47,992 nt of DNA from Oscillospiraceae bacterium (lineage in GTDB: Bacteria; Bacillota; Clostridia; Oscillospirales; Oscillospiraceae). Location: the NCBI GenBank assembly GCA_017519005.1, contig JAFWTG010000046.1, positions 1-47,992 on the forward strand, written 5' to 3'. This document shows, one piece after another, positions 2,275 through 12,693 of the stretch. The notes under the pieces are model-generated. The model was not told the origin of the DNA and made no database searches. It saw nothing but the letters and a program-made list of their open reading frames with translations. The stretch's first letter is position 1. Every line of letters begins with the position of its first letter. Position numbers and translations under genes: made by a program.

Positions 2275-3387
2275 TCAGAGAGCGGCTCTTGCCATAGCTT
2301 CCTCATAATCCCTGGTCCCGGCGAAGACTTCGTTGGAGTAGGGGTTCTTCTTCATCCGGATGGAACGCTTGATGATGACGGCAATGCAGAGCAGGTTCAC
2401 GCCAATGGAGAGCATGGCGATAAAACCCTGCATGCGCGCGTCCGCCGTAATCCCCATCTGCGCGATGGCCTCCCCGGCGGCGGCAGTCTTGCCCTGCCCG
2501 TTGTTGAAGAGCTCAATGGCCTTCTCATAGAGCGCCATGGTGGTGACGCCCTTTTCGGCAGCGCCGGTATAGAGGCTGGGCAGAACGGCGGCGAAGCGGC
2601 CCTTCAGCTGGAACAGCGGCACGGTCTGCGCCCACATGCACCAGATCGCCAGGGTGTTGGCACGGTTCTGGATCCAGCCGCCCTTGTTCCACAGCGCGTT
2701 GGCGACGGTGGGAGCCAGCAGCAGCGCGAAGCCGCAGTACCAGGCGTGGGTGGGCAGATTCAGATAGGTGTATTCGAAGTTCCAGATGTCGTAGGCGACG
2801 ATGAACCAGATGGTCATATCGGGCCACAGCATATCGGACCGGTTCTTGTCCTTGGAGCTGTAAAGGTGGATGCAGCCGGTCATGCAGAAGATGTTGATGA
2901 GGCCGGCCAGCGCGTTCAGAATGTTCCACCAGCCGCCGTAGAGGAAGACGCCCTCATTGGAGGCCCACCAGGCGCCGCTGAAGTTGCCGGTGATGGAATA
3001 GGCGGCCAGGGCGGACTCCATATCGGAGACGTTGGCGATCATGATGTTGGCGGCCACGATGAACCAGGGATACCACTTGAACCACTTTTTCTTGCCGAGG
3101 CCCCACTGATACTTGATCATCATGAAGCCTACGCAGCCGACGTCGGCGGCATACAGCTTGAAGTAGTGGAACCAGCCGTCCATGTAGGCGACGGTGGGAT
3201 TGCTCTTGCCGCCGAAGAGACCCAAGTGCGCCAGAACGTAGTAAACGGTGAGCATGACCGGGATGATGACGAAGATGATCATGCCGCCGGCCTTGGTCTT
3301 GCGGCCCAGCTCATTGAGAATAATGAGCCCGGCAAATACCAGGACCCAGCCCAGAATTTGCCACAGATTGCTGATTTGGAATATCAT
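2275..3387 (-). CDS. Multi-pass membrane protein, DUF5692-like
   Basis: This 370-residue integral membrane protein has many hydrophobic helices, starting with QILGWVLVFAGLIILNELG, and an unusually high tryptophan content (for example GAWWASNEG, GGWWNILNAL, DIWNFEYTYL). I recall this as DUF5692, a family of unknown function. The start at 3387 is set by GGGGAGGAAAAGAA directly before the ATG; an upstream in-frame ATG at 3435 falls inside the promoter -10 region and is excluded. It has its own strong promoter and terminator, so it appears monocistronic. It lies next to a LysR gene that also faces the amino acid fermentation operon. A transport or membrane-coupling role for those metabolites is possible but unproven. 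Confidence 0.65.
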   Translation of the reverse strand: MIFQISNLWQILGWVLVFAGLIILNELGRKTKAGGMIIFVIIPVMLTVYYVLAHLGLFGGKSNPTVAYMDGWFHYFKLYAADVGCVGFMMIKYQWGLGKKKWFKWYPWFIVAANIMIANVSDMESALAAYSITGNFSGAWWASNEGVFLYGGWWNILNALAGLINIFCMTGCIHLYSSKDKNRSDMLWPDMTIWFIVAYDIWNFEYTYLNLPTHAWYCGFALLLAPTVANALWNKGGWIQNRANTLAIWCMWAQTVPLFQLKGRFAAVLPSLYTGAAEKGVTTMALYEKAIELFNNGQGKTAAAGEAIAQMGITADARMQGFIAMLSIGVNLLCIAVIIKRSIRMKKNPYSNEVFAGTRDYEEAMARAAL

Positions 3388-3434
3388 TTCTTTTCCTCCC
3401 CGGATGATTTTTTTGTTGATTTCATCCAAATGCA

Positions 3435-3462
3435 ATTATACACCGTTTGAAATGATTGTCAA
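3435..3462 (-). promoter_or_regulatory. Sigma-A promoter of the DUF5692-like gene
   Basis: On the minus strand, TTGACA (3462-3457) and TATAAT (3440-3435) are separated by 16 bp. Both hexamers match the consensus perfectly, implying strong, largely constitutive expression unless repressed. Confidence 0.8.
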
Positions 3463-3495: not shown

Positions 3496-4383
3496 TTAAC
3501 TCCTGCATTGCGTGGTCAGGTAATCCCGGAAGCGCTTGATCTCCGGCCGCTTCAGATTTGAATGCAGGCAGATGAACTGCAGGCTGATCCAGGTTTCCGG
3601 CTCCAGCGGAACGGCGGTTACGTGGAAGTAGTCCGCGAAGGAGGCCGGTCCCATGGCGACGCCCATACCGTCGCGCACCAGGCGCATACTGGTGTCGATG
3701 CCGTCGGTCCGGAAAACGCGCTTGATGCTGATGTGATACTTCCGCAGGGCGTTTTTCATGGAGCGGTCCTCGGCGGAGTCCTCCAGACCGGAGATCATGG
3801 TACAGCCCTGCAGATCCCGGAAGGCGAGGGAGTTGTAACCGGCGCGGGGATCGTTCTCGCTCAGCAGGACGCACTGCCGTTCCCGAATCAGCGGAACGGC
3901 GAAAAGCTCGGCGGAATCCGACTGGTGATCGTCCAGCGGGAGCCGGTCCAGGGCCAGATCCAGCTCTCCCTTCCGCAGCGACTCCACCATGTCGCGGCCG
4001 GCCTCCGTCACAAAGGTGACCTCGATCTCCGGCTTTGCTTCAAAGTAGGCGGCGATTTTCGGGAAGAGTCCGTTGGAGTAGACGCGGGAACCCAGGCCCA
4101 GACGCAGCCGAAGCGACGCGGGCTTTTCCTTCTGCTGTACGGTTTTACAGAACTCAATCCAACGGTCCGCCACCGGCTGCGCCTGATCGCAGAAGCTTTG
4201 CCCCTCCTCCGTCAGCTGCAGTCCGTTGGCGGTACGGGAGAAGAGAGAATAGCCCAGCTCCTCCTCCAGACGGCGCAGCTGCTGGGAGAGCGCGGACTGC
4301 GACAGATAGAGCTTTTGCGCCGCCTGCGACACGCTGGAGCGGGAGGCAATCTCCAAAACGTAAAGAACCTGTTGTATCGTCAT
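3496..4383 (-). CDS. LysR-family transcriptional regulator
   Basis: This 295-residue LysR-type regulator has an N-terminal winged helix-turn-helix (QVLYVLEIASRSSVSQAAQK, LSQSALSQQLRRLE) and a C-terminal periplasmic-binding-like effector domain. The ATG at 4383 follows AGAGGTAAAGCTT; a longer frame to 4470 would start inside the promoter and has no ribosome site. The gene is divergent from iorA with interlocked promoters, which is the usual LysR arrangement. I infer that it controls the iorAB-ptb-buk-aminotransferase-tnaA run and its own gene. The effector is unknown; an aromatic amino acid or aryl-2-oxo acid would be a logical candidate. Confidence 0.9.
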   Translation of the reverse strand: MTIQQVLYVLEIASRSSVSQAAQKLYLSQSALSQQLRRLEEELGYSLFSRTANGLQLTEEGQSFCDQAQPVADRWIEFCKTVQQKEKPASLRLRLGLGSRVYSNGLFPKIAAYFEAKPEIEVTFVTEAGRDMVESLRKGELDLALDRLPLDDHQSDSAELFAVPLIRERQCVLLSENDPRAGYNSLAFRDLQGCTMISGLEDSAEDRSMKNALRKYHISIKRVFRTDGIDTSMRLVRDGMGVAMGPASFADYFHVTAVPLEPETWISLQFICLHSNLKRPEIKRFRDYLTTQCRS

Positions 4384-4431
4384 AAGCTTTACCTCTAATG
4401 GAGCATGATTTTGCGGGAGAATAAGTAAATC

Positions 4432-4485
4432 TAATACTGCTATTATAAGTTTATTCTTTACAGTTTGCAAGTATTATTTTATAAT
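4432..4485. promoter_or_regulatory. Interlocked divergent promoters of lysR and iorA with a dyad
   Basis: The rightward promoter is TTTACA (4457-4462), 17 bp, TATAAT (4480-4485). The leftward promoter is TTGCAA (4470-4465), 17 bp, TATAAT (4447-4442). Each -35 element lies inside the spacer of the other, so polymerase should occupy only one at a time. A perfect 7-bp inverted repeat, TAATACT (4432-4438) and AGTATTA (4470-4476), brackets the leftward promoter and is a candidate LysR half-site pair. Confidence 0.75.
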
Positions 4486-4542: not shown

Positions 4543-6294
4543 TTGGATCGACAACTGCTTTCCGGCAATGAGGCCATTGCCAGAGGAGCCTATGAGGCCG
4601 GCGTCAAGGTCTGCTCCGCCTACCCCGGAACGCCCAGCACGGAGATCTTCGAGAATCTGCCCAAGTACAAGGATGCGCTCTACTGCGAATGGGCTCCGAA
4701 CGAAAAGGTCGCCACGGAGGTCGCCTATGGCGCCAGCATTGCGGGTGTTCGCAGCCTTTGCGCCATGAAGCACGTGGGAGTCAACGTTGCCGCGGACCCC
4801 ATTTTCACTGCGGCCTATAACGGCGTCAGCGGCGGCTTCGTTATCATTTCCGCCGACGATCCCAGCATGCATTCCTCCCAGAATGAGCAGGATAACCGGT
4901 ATTACGCCAAGTCCGCGAAAATCGCCATGATAGAGCCATCCGATTCTCAGGAATGCCTGGACTTTATGAAGGCTGCCTACGAGATCTCTGAGCAGTTTGA
5001 TATGCCCGTGCTTTTCCGGACCACCACCCGCGTGGCCCATTCCAAGAGCATCGTCAGCTTCGGCGAGCGCGTGGAGCGCGAGGTTCCGCCCTATGTGCGC
5101 AACACCCGCAAGTACATCTCCGCCCCCGCCAACGCCTATCGCAACCATCCCAAGCTGGAGGAGAATCTGAAGAAGCTGGCGGCCTACGGCTGCACCAGCC
5201 CCCTGAACAAGGTCGAGCCGGGCGACGGCAAGATCGGCGTCGTCACCGCCTCCATTGCTTACTACTATGCCAAGGACGCCTTCCCCGAAGGCACGGCCTT
5301 CCTGAAGCTGGGTCTGACCAACCCCCTGCCCATGGACCTGATCCGCGACTTCGCCTCCAAGGTCGAGAAGCTCTACGTCATTGAGGAGCTGGACGGCTTC
5401 ATGGAGGAGCAGATCAAGGCCGCCGGCATCCCCTGTGTCGGCAAGGAGCTCATCGGCAACATGTACGAGCTGAATCCGCAGCTTGTCAAAGAGCGGATCT
5501 TCGGCGAGGCCGCGCCCGTCACCGACGTGGGCGTGCAGGCCGTTTCCCGTCCGCCCGCACTCTGCCCCGGCTGCCCCCACAGAGGCTTCTTCTACACCAT
5601 GTCCAAGCATAAGGACTTCGTTATCGCCGGCGATATCGGCTGCTACACGCTGGGCGGCTCCGCACCTCTGAACGCGCTGGATTCCGTGGTCTGCATGGGC
5701 GGCGGCTTCTCCGTGGCGATGGGTATGGCCAAGGCCTTCGAGGCCGCCGGCGTCACCGACAAGAAGGTCTTCGGCGTCCTGGGCGACTCCACCTTCTTCC
5801 ACAGCGGCATGACCGGCGCGGCCGAGATCATCTACAACGGAGGCAATCTGATCCCCGTGGTGCTGGACAACTCCATCACCGGCATGACCGGCCACCAGGA
5901 TAACCCCGTCACCGGCTTCAACCTCCAGGGCGAGATTGCCGAAAAGCTGAAGATCGAGGACATTCTCACGGCCTACGGCTACAAGAAGGTTATCATCGTT
6001 GATCCGCAGGACCTCAAGGCCATGGAGCAGGCCGTTCAGGACGCCCTCCACTCCGAGGTCCCCGCCGCCATCATTGCCCGTCGGCCCTGCCTGCTGATCA
6101 AGCGCATCAAGCACGATATCGGCAAGTGCGTCGTCGATACGGACAAGTGCATCGGCTGCAAGCGCTGCCTCGGTGTAGGCTGCCCCGCCGTGCTCGTTGA
6201 GAACAAGAAGGCCCGGATCGATCACAATCAGTGCGTGGGCTGCACCGTCTGCGCGCAGGTTTGCCCGATGGGCGCCATCAGCAGAAAGGAGTAA
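4543..6294 (+). CDS. iorA: Indolepyruvate ferredoxin oxidoreductase, alpha subunit
   Basis: The large subunit of the ferredoxin-dependent enzyme that converts aryl-2-oxo acids (indolepyruvate, phenylpyruvate, hydroxyphenylpyruvate) to aryl-acetyl-CoA, CO2 and reduced ferredoxin. It has 583 residues: an N-terminal pyrimidine-binding domain (SAYPGTPSTEIFENL), a thiamine-diphosphate domain (GDIGCYTLGG, VLDNSITGMTGHQDNP), and two C-terminal 4Fe-4S motifs, CIGCKRCLGVGCP (CX2CX2CX4CP) and CVGCTVCAQVCP. The start is taken as TTG at 4543, because AAGGTGG at 4529-4535 lies 7 bp upstream and the family begins close to this residue. An in-frame GTG at 4531 overlaps that ribosome site and is less likely. 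It is the first gene of the operon and pairs with iorB. Confidence 0.93.
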   Translation: MDRQLLSGNEAIARGAYEAGVKVCSAYPGTPSTEIFENLPKYKDALYCEWAPNEKVATEVAYGASIAGVRSLCAMKHVGVNVAADPIFTAAYNGVSGGFVIISADDPSMHSSQNEQDNRYYAKSAKIAMIEPSDSQECLDFMKAAYEISEQFDMPVLFRTTTRVAHSKSIVSFGERVEREVPPYVRNTRKYISAPANAYRNHPKLEENLKKLAAYGCTSPLNKVEPGDGKIGVVTASIAYYYAKDAFPEGTAFLKLGLTNPLPMDLIRDFASKVEKLYVIEELDGFMEEQIKAAGIPCVGKELIGNMYELNPQLVKERIFGEAAPVTDVGVQAVSRPPALCPGCPHRGFFYTMSKHKDFVIAGDIGCYTLGGSAPLNALDSVVCMGGGFSVAMGMAKAFEAAGVTDKKVFGVLGDSTFFHSGMTGAAEIIYNGGNLIPVVLDNSITGMTGHQDNPVTGFNLQGEIAEKLKIEDILTAYGYKKVIIVDPQDLKAMEQAVQDALHSEVPAAIIARRPCLLIKRIKHDIGKCVVDTDKCIGCKRCLGVGCPAVLVENKKARIDHNQCVGCTVCAQVCPMGAISRKE

Positions 6295-6300
6295 TCAGCC

Positions 6301-6885
6301 ATGACGAAAACGAAAAGCGCGCTGTTGGTCGGCGTAGGCGGCCAGGGTGCTATCCTCACCGCGAAGGTACTGGTCAACGGTCTGATGCGTGCAGGCTATG
6401 ACGTCAAGATGTCCGAGGTCCACGGCATGAGCCAGCGCGGCGGCTCCGTCTCCACCCAGGTCCACTGGGGAGAGAAGGTGAATTCCCCCGTGATCGGCAA
6501 GGGTGCCGCGGATATCATCGTGGCCTTCGAGAAGATGGAGGCCGTCCGCTACGCCGACTACCTGAAGCCGGACGGCGTGGTGGTCGTCAACGACTACGAG
6601 ATGGCGTCCTCCTCCATCGCCGCGGGGCTTGCTCAGTATCCCGAGGGCTGTCTGGAGGCCATGCAGAAGCATTTTACCACCCACGTGCTGAAGGCGGGCG
6701 AGATTGCGGAGTCCCTGGGCTCCGCCAAGTGCATGAACATCGTCCTCTTTGGCTCCATGGTGAAGGCCCTGGGCATGGACGGCGTGGTGGACTGGGAGGA
6801 CGTGATCGCCTCCACCGTGCCGCCCAAGTTCCGGGAGCTGAACCTGAAGGCCTACCGCGCCGGTCACGACGCAGTCAAGGCCTGA
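6301..6885 (+). CDS. iorB: Indolepyruvate ferredoxin oxidoreductase, beta subunit
   Basis: A 194-residue subunit of the pyruvate/ketoisovalerate oxidoreductase gamma domain type. It carries the typical GVGGQGAILTAKVL start and the EVHGMSQRGGSV motif. It is the normal length for the family and begins 6 bp after iorA, giving a two-subunit enzyme like the archaeal and clostridial IOR. With IorA it decarboxylates the 2-oxo acid oxidatively and passes electrons to ferredoxin. The substrate range (aromatic versus branched-chain) cannot be read from the sequence alone. The neighbouring tryptophanase-family gene and the IorA architecture favour aromatic acids. Confidence 0.93.
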   Translation: MTKTKSALLVGVGGQGAILTAKVLVNGLMRAGYDVKMSEVHGMSQRGGSVSTQVHWGEKVNSPVIGKGAADIIVAFEKMEAVRYADYLKPDGVVVVNDYEMASSSIAAGLAQYPEGCLEAMQKHFTTHVLKAGEIAESLGSAKCMNIVLFGSMVKALGMDGVVDWEDVIASTVPPKFRELNLKAYRAGHDAVKA

Positions 6886-6898
6886 GAGGGATACCGAT

Positions 6899-7798
6899 AT
6901 GCTGAAGGATTTTAACGCGCTGCGCGAGCTGGTCGGGGCAGGGGAGCTCAGGACCGTCGCCGTCGCCTGCGCCCATGACGCCCATACCCTGGAGGCCGTG
7001 CTGCACGCGGCCGGGGAGGGCATTCTCAAATACGTCCTGGTGGGCCACCGGGACGAAATCCTCCGGATCGGCCGGGAGCTGGGGCACGAGATCGACCCCG
7101 CCGCCATTGTGGACGCCGATACCGACGAGGAAGCCGCCCGCATCGCCGTGGAGCTGATCCGGGAGAACAAGGCCGACTTCCTGCAGAAGGGCTATATGCA
7201 GACCTCCACGATCCTCAAGGCCGTGGTAAACAAGCAGACCGGCATCGGTACCGGCGGCATCATCTCCCACACCGCCTTTATCGAAATTCCCGGCTACCAC
7301 AAGCTGCTGGGCGTGGCCGACGGCGGCATGGTGCCCCATCCCGATCTGGAACAGAAGAAGGGTATCCTCCGCAACGCCGTGGAGGCCTTCCGGGGCCTGG
7401 GCTACGAGCGGCCTCTGGTGGCCGCCGTCTGCGCCGCCGAGACCGTCAGCCCCAAGATCGTCGAGACCGTGGATGCCGCGGCGCTGAAGGATGCCGCCCT
7501 CGCAGGCGAATTCGGCAATTGCTATGTGGAGGGTCCCATTTCCCTGGACCTGGCCATGGACAAAGCTTCCTGCGAGATCAAGAAGTACGACAGCCCCGTC
7601 AGCGGCAACACGGACATCCTGCTGGTTCCCTATATGGCCGTTGGCAACATCTTCGTCAAGGGGCTGCTGCTCTACGCCGGCGCCCGGATGGTGGGCGTCG
7701 TCACCGGCGCCAAATGCCCCATCGCCCTGAACTCCCGCAGCGCCAGCTTCGAGGAAAAGTACTACTCTCTCATGGCATGCGCCGCCATTTGCCGCTAA
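6899..7798 (+). CDS. ptb: Phosphate butyryltransferase-family acyl phosphotransferase
   Basis: This 299-residue member of the phosphate acetyl/butyryltransferase family exchanges CoA for phosphate on an acyl-CoA. The GTGGIISHTAFIEIPGYHKL and YDSPVSGNTDILLVP segments are characteristic, and the length matches known Ptb proteins. It starts 13 bp after iorB and 15 bp before the butyrate kinase gene. No crotonyl-CoA or butyryl-CoA genes are nearby, while an arylpyruvate oxidoreductase is. I therefore infer that its substrate here is an arylacetyl-CoA (or branched acyl-CoA) rather than butyryl-CoA. That is context-based, not residue-based. Confidence 0.9.
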   Translation: MLKDFNALRELVGAGELRTVAVACAHDAHTLEAVLHAAGEGILKYVLVGHRDEILRIGRELGHEIDPAAIVDADTDEEAARIAVELIRENKADFLQKGYMQTSTILKAVVNKQTGIGTGGIISHTAFIEIPGYHKLLGVADGGMVPHPDLEQKKGILRNAVEAFRGLGYERPLVAAVCAAETVSPKIVETVDAAALKDAALAGEFGNCYVEGPISLDLAMDKASCEIKKYDSPVSGNTDILLVPYMAVGNIFVKGLLLYAGARMVGVVTGAKCPIALNSRSASFEEKYYSLMACAAICR

Positions 7799-7813
7799 GG
7801 CAGGGGAGGGGCC

Positions 7814-8902
7814 ATGTCCTGTAAACAGCTCATCATCAATCCCGGCTCCACCAGCACCAAGCTGGCCCTCTACGACGGGACGCAAAAGGTCCTCCAGACC
7901 AGCATCGAGCACAAGCCCGAGCAGCTTTTGGCTTTTGAGAAGATCGGAGACCAGGTGCCCTTCCGTCTGGAACTGATCCGGGATTTCATGCGGCAAAACA
8001 ACATCAAAGGCGAGGAGCTTTCCTCCGTCATCGGACGCGGCGGCCTGGTCTTCGGGCTCAAAATGGGCGGCTACGAGGTCAACGACGAGCTTTGCGAGGC
8101 CTTGGTCAACCACGATTACAGCCAGCCCCATGCCTCCAACCTGGGCGGCCTTCTGGCCCGGGCCATCGCCGACGAATACCACATCCCCGCCTATATCTAC
8201 GACGCCGTCACGTCCGGCGAGCTGAGCCCCGTGGCCCGGATCACCGGGATGCCGGAGATCCGGCGGGCGTCCTTCAGCCACGTGCTGAACAGCCACGCCC
8301 AGGCCATCCGCTACGCGGAATCCATCGGAAAGAAGTATGAGGATCTGAACCTCATCGTCTTCCACCTGGGCGGCGGCACCTCCGCCTCCGTCCATCAGCA
8401 CGGCGTCATGATCGACTCCGTGGGCGATGACGACGGTCAGTTCTCCCCGGAACGGGCGGGCTGCTTCCCGTCTCTGGCCCTGGTGAAGCTGTGCTATTCC
8501 GGCCGGTACACCAAAAAGGAGATGGACAAGAAGATCCGCGGCAAGGGCGGCATGTACGCCTACCTGGGCACCAGCGACGCCCGGGAGATCGAACGCCGGA
8601 TCCAGGCGGGAGACCAGTACGCCGACGAGATCTATCAGGCCCAGGCCTACCAGATTGCCAAGACCATCGGCTTGCTCTCCGTGGCCCTGAAGGGGAACTG
8701 CGACGCCATCATCCTCACCGGCGGGCTGGCCTATTCCAAGCTGCTCACCGACCGAATCAAAGAATACGCCGGATTCATTGCTCCCGTGGTGGTGATCCCG
8801 GGTGAAAACGAAATGGAAGCTTTGGCCCAGGGCGGTCTTCGGATCCTCGCGGGTCAGGAACAGGCAAATGTCTATCATTTACCGGAAAGGAAGGAAGAGT
8901 AA
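7814..8902 (+). CDS. buk: Butyrate kinase-family acyl phosphate kinase
   Basis: A 362-residue ASKHA-fold kinase of the acetate/butyrate kinase family, making ATP from an acyl phosphate. The N-terminal INPGSTSTKLALYDG phosphate-binding motif, the HLGGGTSASVHQHG motif and the ILTGGLAYS adenosine motif are all present, at a normal family length. It pairs with the preceding ptb to give substrate-level phosphorylation at the end of the oxidative branch. Its stop overlaps the next start by one base (TAATG), so translation is probably coupled. The natural substrate may be an aryl-acetyl phosphate or branched acyl phosphate rather than butyryl phosphate, judging from the neighbours. Confidence 0.92.
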   Translation: MSCKQLIINPGSTSTKLALYDGTQKVLQTSIEHKPEQLLAFEKIGDQVPFRLELIRDFMRQNNIKGEELSSVIGRGGLVFGLKMGGYEVNDELCEALVNHDYSQPHASNLGGLLARAIADEYHIPAYIYDAVTSGELSPVARITGMPEIRRASFSHVLNSHAQAIRYAESIGKKYEDLNLIVFHLGGGTSASVHQHGVMIDSVGDDDGQFSPERAGCFPSLALVKLCYSGRYTKKEMDKKIRGKGGMYAYLGTSDAREIERRIQAGDQYADEIYQAQAYQIAKTIGLLSVALKGNCDAIILTGGLAYSKLLTDRIKEYAGFIAPVVVIPGENEMEALAQGGLRILAGQEQANVYHLPERKEE

Positions 8903-10098
8903 TGGTCGTAGAAAAATACCACAAGATGGGTGTTGCCAAGAGCCGGATCCGCGAACTGTTTGAATACGGCATGGCACAGGCCAAGGTAGTCGGAAAAGAA
9001 AACGTCTTTGATTTCTCCATCGGCAACCCCTCTGTTCCCGCGCCTGAAAAGGTGGCGGAGGTCGTCAGAGAGCTGCTGGAGATGGATCCCATCGCCCTGC
9101 ACGGCTACACCCCGGCAGGCGGCTGCGCCGAGGCCCGGGAAGCCATCGCTGCCGACCTCTCCCGGCGCGCCAAGGATAAGATCCGTCCCGAGAACATCTT
9201 CTTCACCTGCGGCGCCGCTCCCGCCATGACTGCCTGCATGCACGCCCTGGCCGTGGAGAACGCGGAATTCCTGCTGATCGCGCCCTATTTCTCCGAATAT
9301 CCTGCCTACTGCGCCTCCACTGGCGCCAAGTGCGTGGTGGTTCCCCCCGACACCGAGAACTTCCAGATCCGTTTCGACGAGCTGGAGAAGCGCATCAACC
9401 GGAACACCCAGGCGGTCATCATCAACTCTCCCAACAACCCCTCCGGCGTCATCTACTTCGAGGAGACCCTTCGGAAGCTGGGCGAGATTCTGACCCGTAA
9501 GGGTGAGGAGATCGGCCACCCCATCTACGTCCTTTCCGACGAGCCCTACCGCGAGTTGACCTATGACGGGCTGGATTTCCCCTACGTGCCGAACATCTAC
9601 CCGAATACCGTCATCTGCTATTCCTACTCCAAGATCCTCTCCATGCCCGGCGAGCGTATCGGCTACGTCTGCGTACCCGATCAGTGCGCCGACAGCGCGG
9701 CCCTATACGCGGCCATTGCCGGCGCGGCCCGGGCCATCGGCCACGTCTGCGCGCCGTCCCTGTGGCAGCGCGTCGTCGCCCGCTGCACCGAGCTGCGTCC
9801 CGATCTGGAGACCTACGACCACAATCGCGTCACCCTCTACACCGAGCTCAGCAAAATGGGCTTCCGCTGTGTCAAGCCCCAGGGCGCGTTTTACATGATG
9901 GTGGAAGCGCCCGACGGCGACTCTGAAGGCTTCTCCAACCGCGCCAAGGCCCTGAACATCCTGACCGTCCCCTGCGACGGCTTCGGCTGCCCCGGCTTCA
10001 GCCGATTCTCAACCTGCGTCAGCCCCGCTATGATTCAGCGCAGCCTGCCCGCATTCAAAAAACTGGCCGAGTCCTACGGCCTGCAGCCCCGTGACTGA
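8902..10098 (+). CDS. Class I/II PLP-dependent aminotransferase
   Basis: This 398-residue fold-type I aminotransferase resembles aspartate and aromatic aminotransferases. Recognisable parts are GYTPAGG (about 69-75), NSPNNPSG (175-182), SDEPYRELTYDG (212-223) and the PLP-binding lysine K244 in SYSKILSMPGERIGY. It is coupled to buk by a TAATG overlap. In the operon it would supply the 2-oxo acid for IorAB by transamination with 2-oxoglutarate or another acceptor. Amino acid specificity cannot be settled from motifs. The placement suggests aromatic amino acids. Confidence 0.9.
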   Translation: MVVEKYHKMGVAKSRIRELFEYGMAQAKVVGKENVFDFSIGNPSVPAPEKVAEVVRELLEMDPIALHGYTPAGGCAEAREAIAADLSRRAKDKIRPENIFFTCGAAPAMTACMHALAVENAEFLLIAPYFSEYPAYCASTGAKCVVVPPDTENFQIRFDELEKRINRNTQAVIINSPNNPSGVIYFEETLRKLGEILTRKGEEIGHPIYVLSDEPYRELTYDGLDFPYVPNIYPNTVICYSYSKILSMPGERIGYVCVPDQCADSAALYAAIAGAARAIGHVCAPSLWQRVVARCTELRPDLETYDHNRVTLYTELSKMGFRCVKPQGAFYMMVEAPDGDSEGFSNRAKALNILTVPCDGFGCPGFSRFSTCVSPAMIQRSLPAFKKLAESYGLQPRD

Positions 10099-10130
10099 TT
10101 GCCCTTTTCGATATTGGAGGAAATTTTAAA

Positions 10131-11774
10131 ATGGCAAAAGAATACCCCCTGAACGTCAAGACTCCCCGCAGCTTCACCTACGTGACCCGCAATATCCCCG
10201 AAGTGACCGTAGAACAGCGGGAACGCGCCCTGAAGGCCACCCACTACAACGAGTTCGCGTTCCCTGCCGGAATGCTGACCGTGGACATGCTCTCCGACTC
10301 CGGCACCACCGCCATGACCGACCAGCAGTGGTCCGCCATGTTCCTGGGCGACGAGTCCTACGGCCGCAACAAGGGCTACTACGTGCTGCTGGACGCCTTC
10401 CGCGACATCTTTGAGCGCGGCGGCGAGAAGAACTGGAAGAAGTCCATCGACCTGATCCGCACCGACTGCCACGACATTGAAAAGCTGATGAACGAGCTCT
10501 ACCTCTGCGAGTATGAGGGCGGCTTCTTCAACGGCGGCGCGGCCCAGCTGGAGCGCCCCAACACCTTCCTGATCCAGCAGGGCAGAGCGGCGGAGTCCGT
10601 ACTCTTCGAGATGGTCAAGAAGATCATGAGCCAGCGGCACCCCGGCAAGGTCTTCACCATCCCCTCCAACGGCCACTTCGACACCACCGAGGGCAACATC
10701 AAGCAGATGGGCTCCATTCCCCGCAACCTCTACAACAAGGAGCTGCTTTACGAGGTCCCCGAGGGCGGCAAATACGAGAAAAACCCCTTCAAGGGCGACA
10801 TGGACGTCAAGAAGCTTGAGGAGCTCATTGAGAGCGTCGGCCCCGAAAACGTCCCGCTGATTTACACCACCATCACCAACAACACCGTCTGCGGCCAGGC
10901 CGTCTCCATGAAGTCCATCCGGGAGACCGCCAAGATTGCCGCCAAGTACGACATCCCCTTCATGTTCGACGTGGCCCGCTGGGCGGAGAACGCCTACTTC
11001 ATCAAGGTTAACGAGGAGGGCTACGCCGACAAGTCCATCGCGGAGATCGCCACCGAGATGTTCTCTTACTGCGACGGCTTCACCATGTCCGCCAAGAAGA
11101 ACGGCCACGCCAATATGGGCGGCATGCTGGCCTTCCGCGATAAGGGCCGCTTCTGGAGAAAGTTCTCCGACTTCAATCCCGACGGCAGCGTCAAGACCGA
11201 CGTGGGCGTTCTGCTGAAGGTCAAGCAGATTTCCTGCTACGGCAACGACTCCTACGGCGGCATGTCCGGCCGTGATATCATGGCGCTGGCAGCCGGCCTC
11301 TATGAGGAGTGCAACTTCAACTACCAGGAGGCCCGCGTGCAGCAATGCGAGTACCTGGCCCAGGGCTTCTACAAGGCCGGCGTCAAGGGCGTGATTCTGC
11401 CCGCCGGCGGCCACGGCGTCTACATCAACATGACGGAGTTCTTCGACGGCAAGCGCGGCCATGAGACCTTTGCCGGCCAGGGCTTCTCCATCGAACTGAT
11501 CCGCCGCTACGGCATCCGCACCTCCGAGCTGGGCGACTACTCCATGGAGTACGATCTCAAGACCCCGGAGCAGCAGGAGGAGCTCTGCAACGTGGTTCGC
11601 TTCGCGGTCAACCGCAGCATGTGGAGCCAGGAGCATATGGACTACGTCATCGCCGCGGTCAAGGCGCTCTACGAGGACCGGGAGTCCATCCCCAACATGC
11701 GGATCGTCAAGGGCCGCACCCTTCCCATGCGCCACTTCCACGCCTTCCTGGAGCCCTACCCCAACGAAGAATAA
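10131..11774 (+). CDS. tnaA: Tryptophanase-family beta-eliminating lyase, long form
   Basis: A 547-residue PLP enzyme of the tryptophanase/tyrosine phenol-lyase family, which cleaves the amino acid to pyruvate, ammonia and indole or phenol. Family marks are DSGTTAMT, GDESYGRNKGYY (with the Y77 equivalent of Tyr74 in E. coli TnaA), SNGHFDTTEGN, FDVARWAENAYFIK and the PLP lysine in MSAKKNGHANMGG (K323). H535 in MRHF aligns with TnaA His463, where phenol-lyase has Phe, and L467 in SELG sits where phenol-lyase has the phenol-binding Arg381. Both favour tryptophanase. It is 76 residues longer than E. coli TnaA, mainly through an insert at about 95-141. A good ribosome site (GGAGG) precedes the ATG. 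Confidence 0.87.
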   Translation: MAKEYPLNVKTPRSFTYVTRNIPEVTVEQRERALKATHYNEFAFPAGMLTVDMLSDSGTTAMTDQQWSAMFLGDESYGRNKGYYVLLDAFRDIFERGGEKNWKKSIDLIRTDCHDIEKLMNELYLCEYEGGFFNGGAAQLERPNTFLIQQGRAAESVLFEMVKKIMSQRHPGKVFTIPSNGHFDTTEGNIKQMGSIPRNLYNKELLYEVPEGGKYEKNPFKGDMDVKKLEELIESVGPENVPLIYTTITNNTVCGQAVSMKSIRETAKIAAKYDIPFMFDVARWAENAYFIKVNEEGYADKSIAEIATEMFSYCDGFTMSAKKNGHANMGGMLAFRDKGRFWRKFSDFNPDGSVKTDVGVLLKVKQISCYGNDSYGGMSGRDIMALAAGLYEECNFNYQEARVQQCEYLAQGFYKAGVKGVILPAGGHGVYINMTEFFDGKRGHETFAGQGFSIELIRRYGIRTSELGDYSMEYDLKTPEQQEELCNVVRFAVNRSMWSQEHMDYVIAAVKALYEDRESIPNMRIVKGRTLPMRHFHAFLEPYPNEE

Positions 11775-11777
11775 TGT

Positions 11778-11801
11778 AGCGGCGCACATTGTGCGCCACA
11801 A
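11778..11801. repeat. GTAGCGG hairpin repeat, copy 1
   Basis: GTAGCGGCGCACATTGTGCG and onward, with palindromic arms GGCGCACA/TTGTGCGCC. It begins 3 bp after the tryptophanase stop codon and may also act as a transcription attenuator. Related copies lie at 12690, 42623, 44962, 47701, 47768 and 47835. Confidence 0.75.
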
Positions 11802-11850: not shown

Positions 11851-12693
11851 ATGGTAACATTTGAAATAAGAAAAATCACCGATCACATCACGGAATTTCT
11901 GGGCCGCTTCCATGAGCGCATGTATCTGGTGAAGGGCACGGAACGCGCCGCGCTGATCGACGCCGGCTGCGGCTTCGGCTCCCTGAAGGCCGAGGTGGAC
12001 AGGCACAACGAGCTTCCCCTGATGGTTCTGCTGACCCACGGCCACCAGGACCACGCCATGGGAGCCGTGGAGTTTGACGAGGTCTGGCTGAACCCAGAGG
12101 AAAAGGAAGTCTTTTTGCGCCATACCGACGGCCCCTACCGGCTTCTCGGCCTCGCCATCTCCCGGGATGCGAAGCTTGTCACCCCCGAGGACATGCTTCC
12201 CCCGCCGGATTACGACAGCTTCCGTCCCGTCCGGGCGGGAGACGTCTTTGATTTGGGCGGTGTTACGCTGGAGGCCTTTGCCTGCCCGGGCCATTCAAGG
12301 GGGCATCTGGTGTATTTGGATCGGGAGCACAGAATTCTCTTTTCCGGCGACGCGGTCAGCAGAGCCAGCTTCCTGCTGGGGAAGGAGGCTGTGAGCGTCG
12401 AGGAATACCGCGACAATCTGATCCGCTTGCGGGACCAATTGGACGGGAAGGTGGATCGCATTTTAGAAGGCCACGGCAGTGGCGAGCTGCCCTTTGCCAT
12501 CTTTGACGGCGTGATTCAGGTCTGCCAACAGGTTCTGGACGGCGATACGGACCGCGTCCCCTACGATCTCCGGGGCTACCGGGGCTTCACGGCGAAAAAA
12601 CGCCTGCCCCATTCTCTGGACCGGGAAGACGGCGGCTTCGGCAACCTGATCTACCGCGAAGACAAGCTCTGGCGCCGCCAGCTCACCCCGTAG
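11851..12693 (+). CDS. Metallo-beta-lactamase fold hydrolase
   Basis: A 280-residue MBL-fold metalloprotein. The di-metal motif LLTHGHQDHAMGA is clear. Further ligands are the His of CPGHSRGH, the Asp of LFSGDAVS and the His of LEGHGSGEL. AGGTGAAGCT before the ATG at 11851 sets the start; an upstream frame to 11791 only reads through the repeat. It lies 76 bp after the tryptophanase gene and may be cotranscribed, but glyoxalase-II-like hydrolase, lactonase or other activity cannot be told apart. Its TAG stop (12691-12693) is contributed by a hairpin repeat, so the original C-terminus may have been slightly different. Confidence 0.85.
   Translation: MVTFEIRKITDHITEFLGRFHERMYLVKGTERAALIDAGCGFGSLKAEVDRHNELPLMVLLTHGHQDHAMGAVEFDEVWLNPEEKEVFLRHTDGPYRLLGLAISRDAKLVTPEDMLPPPDYDSFRPVRAGDVFDLGGVTLEAFACPGHSRGHLVYLDREHRILFSGDAVSRASFLLGKEAVSVEEYRDNLIRLRDQLDGKVDRILEGHGSGELPFAIFDGVIQVCQQVLDGDTDRVPYDLRGYRGFTAKKRLPHSLDREDGGFGNLIYREDKLWRRQLTP

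Follow-up and report, generated by a model that had tools for sequence, protein, structure and literature searches.

What does a run of six genes do that joins an indolepyruvate:ferredoxin oxidoreductase (IOR), a phosphate acyltransferase, an acyl kinase and an aminotransferase (AT) to a tryptophanase? The question is raised by contig JAFWTG010000046.1 of the Oscillospiraceae assembly GCA_017519005.1, whose 47,992 nucleotides are here called the window; the run, iorA-iorB-ptb-buk-AT-tnaA, occupies positions 4543 to 11774. We propose that it is a LysR-controlled operon for the oxidative (Stickland-type) fermentation of aromatic amino acids, tnaA included, and give this reading, made from sequence comparison, a probability of about 0.8. 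It is preferred because the oxidoreductase belongs to the IOR family, because Ptb and Buk keep the company of IOR-linked homologues in phylogenetic trees, and because the genes of rival pathways were absent from our searches. The source genome is a 2.29-Mb assembly in 141 contigs, 86% complete. Its nearest named records are assemblies of uncultured Oscillospiraceae or Clostridia, several of which come from samples of the rumen or omasum.

Gene content and proposed pathway

The genes of the run are as follows.

4543..6294, + strand: iorA, IOR alpha subunit, with a TTG start and thiamine pyrophosphate-binding and 4Fe-4S domains; TIGR03336 693.6 bits (cut-off 650.9)
6301..6885, + strand: iorB, IOR beta subunit; NF005325 247 bits (cut-off 230)
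6899..7798, + strand: ptb-like phosphate acyltransferase gene; PF01515 112.6; would convert arylacetyl-CoA to arylacetyl phosphate
7814..8902, + strand: buk-like acyl kinase gene; TIGR02707 435.6 (cut-off 289.1); putative ATP-forming arylacetate kinase
8902..10098, + strand: gene of the AT, a pyridoxal phosphate aminotransferase; NF005305/PRK06836 492.8 (cut-off 376); would convert aromatic amino acids to arylpyruvates
10099..10130, + strand: AT/tnaA gap of 32 bp, with a ribosome-binding site and lacking the leader RNA that stands before tnaA in many relatives
10131..11774, + strand: tnaA, long-form tryptophanase; PRK13238 616.9 (cut-off 285); tryptophan to indole, pyruvate and ammonia

The six genes were found in the window with the order, strand and outer ends that an earlier, sequence-only reading had given them. 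The gaps, which it had put at no more than 32 bp, measure 6 (iorA/iorB), 13 (iorB/ptb), 15 (ptb/buk), −1 (buk/AT) and 32 bp (AT/tnaA). Of the two coupled junctions that it had claimed, one is present, the TAATG overlap of buk and AT; the second is not, unless the 6-bp iorA/iorB gap was meant. The TTG start of iorA at 4543 is preceded by the ribosome-binding site AAGGTGG, and no terminator-like site was found on the + strand between 4543 and 12233.

In the proposed pathway the aminotransferase would convert an aromatic amino acid to the arylpyruvate, which IorAB would oxidize with CoA to arylacetyl-CoA, CO2 and reduced ferredoxin. Phosphate would then take the place of CoA on the arylacetyl group through the Ptb-like enzyme, and the Buk-like kinase would form ATP and release phenylacetate, 4-hydroxyphenylacetate or indoleacetate. 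TnaA, probably recruited in this lineage, would split tryptophan into indole, pyruvate and ammonia. One aromatic amino acid signal might thus turn on both fates of tryptophan, and phenylalanine and tyrosine would give arylacetates only.

Conservation of the proposed operon and its promoter

Gene order was compared in 24 genomes of the genus, all counts being subject to their incompleteness. A close Ptb (at least 87% identity) is encoded in 18 of them, and all 17 stretches around Ptb in the other genus genomes preserve the order iorA-iorB-ptb-buk-AT as far as the contigs reach. IorA of the window type occurs in 21 of the 24 genomes (cut or split by contig ends in G001, G003, G006 and G014) and was not found among them in G009, G018 and G019. 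Since the order is kept in all 17 stretches and IorA in 21 genomes, the run is more than a chance arrangement; a survey of related genomes had been proposed with the sequence-only reading, and its outcome agrees with it. G018 has a fragment of another kind, and G019 a 51% IOR in another context: locus L183 on its contig C12 carries a different IOR pair (51%/42%) beside an arginine deiminase-like gene, the latter named by eye.

Upstream of iorA lie three further elements.

3496..4383, − strand: LysR-type regulator gene (PF00126/PF03466), divergent from iorA; presumed regulator of the operon
4421..4452, + strand: conserved dyad ATAAG-N5-CTWAT ... ATAAGTTT; presumed LysR operator
4457..4485, + strand: sigma-70-type promoter of iorA, TTTACA-17-TATAAT, with 11/12 consensus matches, conserved in the genus

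The block formed by the dyad, a further ATAAG and then TTTACA-17-TATAAT hardly varies across all 16 aligned genus loci, the window included. Its dyad pattern has one match in the window and none in 100 shuffles, and the 51-base block is single-copy in the source genome when up to 3 mismatches are allowed. The LysR gene adjoins iorA in all 15 genus stretches that reach that far, as well as in L184-L187. We read the block as probably a single promoter, under LysR control, that serves all six genes. The 32-bp gap, together with the absence of any terminator-like site, leads us to infer that tnaA shares it and would be co-transcribed with the ior genes.

In other genomes of the class, 40 iorA loci were hand-picked among the higher-scoring of 263 matching genomes (of 391). 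By tblastn with the window proteins, a search of low sensitivity, ptb was detected at 11 and buk at 3 of the 40. tnaA was within the stretch at none of the 40, so linkage of ior and tnaA is not general.

tnaA as the sixth gene

The tnaA product has 547 residues, against 463 positions of the subfamily model, and is a long form. It scores above that tryptophanase subfamily model (PRK13238) and below the tryptophanase equivalog TIGR02617 (301 vs 825.8), a model outside which the long form falls. A full-length match to PDB 8sl7, 'Tryptophanase', is collinear over 547 residues with 1068 bits, and alignments show that the product retains the FDTT, SAKK and RHF stretches of solved tryptophanases. A tyrosine phenol-lyase was ruled out by the TIGR02618 score (278.9 vs 720.7) and by the same stretches.

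Is this gene a working part of the operon or a passenger, a chance neighbour with neither function nor regulation in common with the ior genes? In the genus, tnaA lies directly 3' of AT in 13 of the 17 genomes that could be judged (7 of the 24 could not); in the remaining four it is elsewhere (G011, G016, G021) or was not found (G005). Among the best 80 of 137 relatives with long-form tnaA, the gene stands behind the operon's AT in 14 and not in 59, and is cut in 7. In a TnaA tree of these with the window (81 rows), the 15 linked rows, window included, fall into one clade of 22 together with 4 unlinked and 3 cut rows, at an SH-aLRT value of 85, which is not strong. In 59 of the 81 rows tnaA stands apart from this operon, and 44 of these carry the leader RNA described below.

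These unlinked rows and the four genus genomes favour a passenger, as does the fact that tnaA keeps its own leader inside the cluster in three relatives, L061, L062 and L083. Against it stand the linkage in 13 of 17 genomes and a sixth gene likewise in L071, a locus labelled Erysipelotrichaceae that has the same six genes at a different GC content (48-52% vs 61% in the window) and suggests transfer of the whole unit or mis-binning. In addition, the gap before tnaA is about 10-40 bp in 7 of the 14 named linked loci, and 12 of 15 linked rows have no leader, compared with 15 of 59 unlinked ones (Fisher p 0.0002, for rows that are not independent). We therefore regard a passenger tnaA as a real possibility that is nevertheless doubtful, and prefer tnaA as a part of the fermentation operon.

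The simplest history for this distribution would be that tnaA was inserted behind the ior operon together with its RNA leader, that the leader was later lost, and that operon control was gained. In L061, L062 and L083 the leader begins about 20-35 bases 3' of AT, which leaves little room for a promoter. Such a history fits, and so supports without proving, a joint expression of indole and arylacetate formation.

Among these relatives, L083 (7511-9380) has the order iorAB-AT-tnaA, with about 100 bp instead of ptb and buk between iorB and AT. L062, whose flanks are similar, has both genes, so the gap in L083 may be a deletion or an assembly error.

Direction and substrate of the pathway

An OFOR, a phosphate acyltransferase and a kinase are present in one cluster, and the earlier claim of ferredoxin-linked arylpyruvate oxidation with substrate-level phosphorylation finds support in the families of these proteins and in their place in the trees. 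Flux might also run in reverse, Buk and Ptb activating scavenged arylacetates and IorAB carboxylating them reductively for aromatic amino acid synthesis. In the available passages of PMC13285125 each step of the pathway studied there is called reversible. In the window, however, IorAB is paired with a phosphate acyltransferase and a kinase, through which ATP can be formed, and not with an AMP-forming ligase, and the product of the sixth gene, tnaA, degrades tryptophan. A biosynthetic operon is thus improbable, and the fermentative direction is the one we adopt.

The pair itself was examined in trees of Ptb and Buk, built from open reading frames of more than 200 residues in 46 hand-picked loci of the class, in the window and in 6 loci of its lineage. 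Both trees fall into two sides. That of Buk (66 rows; support 100/100) has on the window side all 19 IOR-linked rows, of which 7 belong to this lineage, together with 8 unlinked and 4 VOR-linked ones; on the other side are 30 VOR-linked, 4 unlinked and 1 acyl-CoA-dehydrogenase-linked (BCD) row. That of Ptb (39 rows; support 95/94) has 16 IOR-linked (7 of this lineage), 3 VOR-linked and 2 unlinked rows on the window side, and 13 VOR-linked, 4 unlinked and 1 BCD row on the other. Homologues of the aminotransferase (at least 40% identity) are found in 3 of 12 IOR-linked compared with 0 of 21 VOR-linked loci.

An operon for branched-chain or other aliphatic 2-oxo acids would be in keeping with the many related Ptb/Buk pairs of the class that adjoin VOR-type oxidoreductases, and OFOR specificity can deviate from sequence, according to the part of PMC13290082 at hand. 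Against it, IorA and IorB both exceed the curated IOR cut-offs, the window's Ptb and Buk group with IOR-linked homologues, and the source genome has another OFOR, with separate alpha and beta genes, on its contig C77 (G000). We consider aliphatic substrates very unlikely. Many of the VOR-linked loci (L312, L314-L317, L319, L321-L324 and others) have two buk genes, usually around one ptb; the two copies split into two clades, which suggests two substrates.

That Ptb and Buk are ordinary butyrate genes, as their names and the Buk model would have it, is barely credible and was ruled out: none of the 24 genus genomes yielded an acyl-CoA dehydrogenase (PF02771; control positive in 10 of 14), which leaves no sign of a butyryl-CoA dehydrogenase in the genus, and gene context and trees also speak against it. 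Ptb moreover belongs to the PF01515 superfamily and misses the phosphate butyryltransferase cut-off (TIGR02706, 271.9 vs 410.5). The sequence-only reading had likewise held that the pair was misnamed, and these results bear it out.

Two other ends of the pathway were also looked for. PFL-like glycyl radical enzymes were found in 0 of the 24 genus genomes (control 3 of 14). This rules out a downstream glycyl-radical decarboxylase, and there is accordingly no sign in the genus of an arylacetate decarboxylase leading to skatole or p-cresol. A 2-hydroxyacyl-CoA dehydratase was found in 1 of 24 genomes (G019 alone; control 2 of 14) and not in the source genome, for which a reductive aromatic branch was ruled out. 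Since none of these three enzymes was found in the source genome, the likely end product is arylacetate, rather than butyrate, arylpropionate, skatole or p-cresol.

Several points weigh against aromatic fermentation as we propose it, beside the reversible steps and the four genomes without a linked tnaA already mentioned. Buk is above the cut-off of TIGR02707, a 'butyrate kinase' equivalog, although its substrate is not settled thereby, and the aminotransferase model PRK06836 names no substrate. Four VOR-linked Buk rows and three VOR-linked Ptb rows lie on the IOR side of trees whose hand-picked loci are mostly top matches of the window's own Buk, open reading frames of 200 residues or less having been dropped. 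The source genome is 86% complete, and the other genomes of the genus are incomplete as well. Finally, neither a LysR match nor the dyad was found beside iorA in the relatives L061, L062, L071 and L083. As the gene order of these relatives matches all or most of the six-gene run, LysR control does not extend to every operon of this type.

A leader RNA before tnaA in relatives

A conserved leader RNA lies shortly 5' of long-form tnaA in 50 of the 80 named loci (covariance model, E <1e-6), as at L099:9868-9933, L066:6357-6402 and L087:9885-9950, all within loci L058-L131 and outside the window. The model was trained on 45 distinct examples; L107 and four duplicate rows among the 50 were outside the training. 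No further copy was found in the 80 loci except two weak second copies in Anaerococcus. There, in L102:9797-9944 and L116:9817-9963, what appears to be a degenerate copy (E 0.09-0.14) lies directly upstream of the leader, in the manner of tandem riboswitches. The window and two further sets of 65 and 40 loci gave no match at E ≤1, viral scans gave none, and a plasmid search had no match. Rfam returned 0 matches at gathering score in 9 leader loci; at E ≤10, three leaders gave low hits only, none above 17 bits and all far below the gathering scores.

Double changes occur in 12 of 19 pairs: helix 4, which is variable, has 7 of them, helix 3 has 3 and helix 1 has 2; helix 2, which is invariant, has none. 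Scoring of covariation gave 0.212, compared with 0.057-0.092 for slid structures and 0.135 for shuffles, the latter comparison being flattering as the rows are related. A promoter pattern whose end lies about 8-40 bases upstream was seen in 9 of 49 leaders. A leader peptide was also considered: an open reading frame enters the element in 24 of 49 leaders, and the distance between the two conserved halves is not the same modulo 3 in all leaders. In 48 of 49 isolated tails, the predicted fold pairs the GGAGG ribosome-binding site with bases just 3' of the element; in 46 of 49 these partners include one or more bases of the 3' strand of the basal helix, and in 23 a single base. The leader is thus a covarying 5' structure that, by these predictions, could occlude the ribosome-binding site.

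Some features speak against a structured RNA. Helix 2 never varies, and in helix 4 only 70% of cells are paired. The number of further pair types was matched by 26 of 500 shuffles. The RNAalifold consensus consists of helices 1-3 and omits helix 4, with a covariation term of −0.72 and 4 of 12 pairs doubly changed. Four full leaders gave modest z-scores (−1.2 to −2.4), and of these L058 alone has the complete modelled structure in its lowest-energy fold.

Which ligand might such a leader bind? It precedes the one gene whose substrate is tryptophan. Its best-conserved internal part, 5' CG-CYA, a stem and GAC-CG 3', is exact in 44 of 49 leaders. The original selection papers on tryptophan aptamers are said to stress a CYA-containing loop. 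Synthetic tryptophan switches have been built on selected L-tryptophan aptamers, as reported in the part of PMC12566513 that was available. Of the two synthetic switches printed in the accessible text of PMC11126579, Blc3 has in its predicted fold the same 3x3 internal loop CCA/GAC with 5'-CG and CG-3' flanks, and Blc4 is without the CYA/GAC pattern. Blc3 is a synthetic construct, whereas the leader is natural, stands before tnaA and has more conserved positions. The match, of about 10 positions in the same structural place, was noticed post hoc with one candidate ligand in mind.

With slightly better than even confidence, we take the leader to be a natural L-tryptophan riboswitch that would bind its ligand at the CYA/GAC loop and free or hide the ribosome-binding site of tnaA for translation. 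On the same footing, the window lineage would have captured tnaA with its leader into the ior operon, as still seen in L061, L062 and L083, and then lost the leader, exchanging RNA control for operon control. No natural tryptophan riboswitch was described in the literature found on tryptophan riboswitches, as judged partly by titles and passages, and to our knowledge none is known in print. Should the leader bind tryptophan, laboratory selection would have arrived independently at the binding loop of a natural tryptophan riboswitch.

Comparison with known systems

The iorAB-ptb-buk core is of a published kind (PMC13285125, PMC13290082, both as far as their available passages go). Like the operon of the window, the 'Cd2' system of Clostridium difficile combines a two-gene-type IOR with a phosphate acyltransferase and an acyl kinase; in the excerpts of PMC13285125 this kinase was assayed on phenylacetate and hydroxyphenylacetate, on which it worked best, and on indoleacetate, on which it worked less well. 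The window differs in adding AT and tnaA to the run and a LysR switch beside it, and in its host lineage, the comparison being one by description.

The HpdDEFG-HpdJ-HpdK system of C. scatologenes, in which an OFOR and homologues of Ptb and Buk turn tyrosine-derived hydroxyphenylpyruvate into hydroxyphenylacetate, shares arylpyruvate oxidation, phosphate aryl-acyl transfer and a kinase, with ATP and reduced ferredoxin as products. In contrast to the window genus, where no PFL-like enzyme was found, it has a p-cresol-forming decarboxylase, and its oxidoreductase is a VOR-like one of four subunits. The same passages place many IOR-type sequences of the Peptostreptococcales near Ptb/Buk-type pairs or a ligase (PMC13285125).

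Aromatic 2-oxoacids are the preferred substrates of IOR/PPFOR-type enzymes from two species, I. bartlettii (CLOBAR_02866-02867) and B. hydrogenotrophica (PPFOR loci), in which multiple OFOR loci have aminotransferase genes and homologues of ptb and buk as neighbours. The portions of PMC13290082 at hand mention no tnaA at these loci, and the window has one. What is new is the long-form tnaA as the sixth gene, seen only in this lineage. No paper on a joint ior/tnaA/ptb/buk operon was found among the matching papers, judged from their listings.

Presence of the operon makes it likely that these uncultured bacteria, several of which were sampled in the rumen or omasum, produce phenylacetate, hydroxyphenylacetate and indoleacetate; indole formation would stand under the same promoter as arylacetate formation. 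In goats, epithelial inflammation is reportedly damped by indoleacetate from the rumen, for which the available passages of PMC12548289 credit Selenomonas and Bifidobacterium. Bacteria of the window type would be a further, candidate source. As the genus yielded no PFL-like enzyme, other species would be needed to make skatole or p-cresol. The split of the Ptb and Buk trees by the neighbouring oxidoreductase also offers a cheap rule by which 'butyrate' genes can be re-read.

Neighbouring features

Two features follow tnaA.

11781..11797, + strand: perfect hairpin (GGCGCACATTGTGCGCC) directly 3' of the tnaA stop, without a T-run and not scored as a terminator
11851..12693, + strand: MBL-fold hydrolase gene (PF00753), the next gene; start uncertain, GTG 11791 being possible

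The hairpin is possibly a 3' end or processing site, and the hydrolase gene may be read through from the operon. The hydrolase gene is also found 3' of tnaA in 8 genus stretches (L033, L035-L037, L039-L042).

On the other side, the left edge of the window encodes the start of a 944-residue Fe-S/flavin oxidoreductase (82% to L184), and a tandem hypB pair lies at 2-685 and 682-2054. hypA is also close by in L184, and a nickel-chaperone set stands beside the ior regulator in several genus genomes. Between hypB and the LysR gene lies a gene for a DUF5692 membrane protein (2275-3435), seen in the same place only in L033 among the genus stretches.

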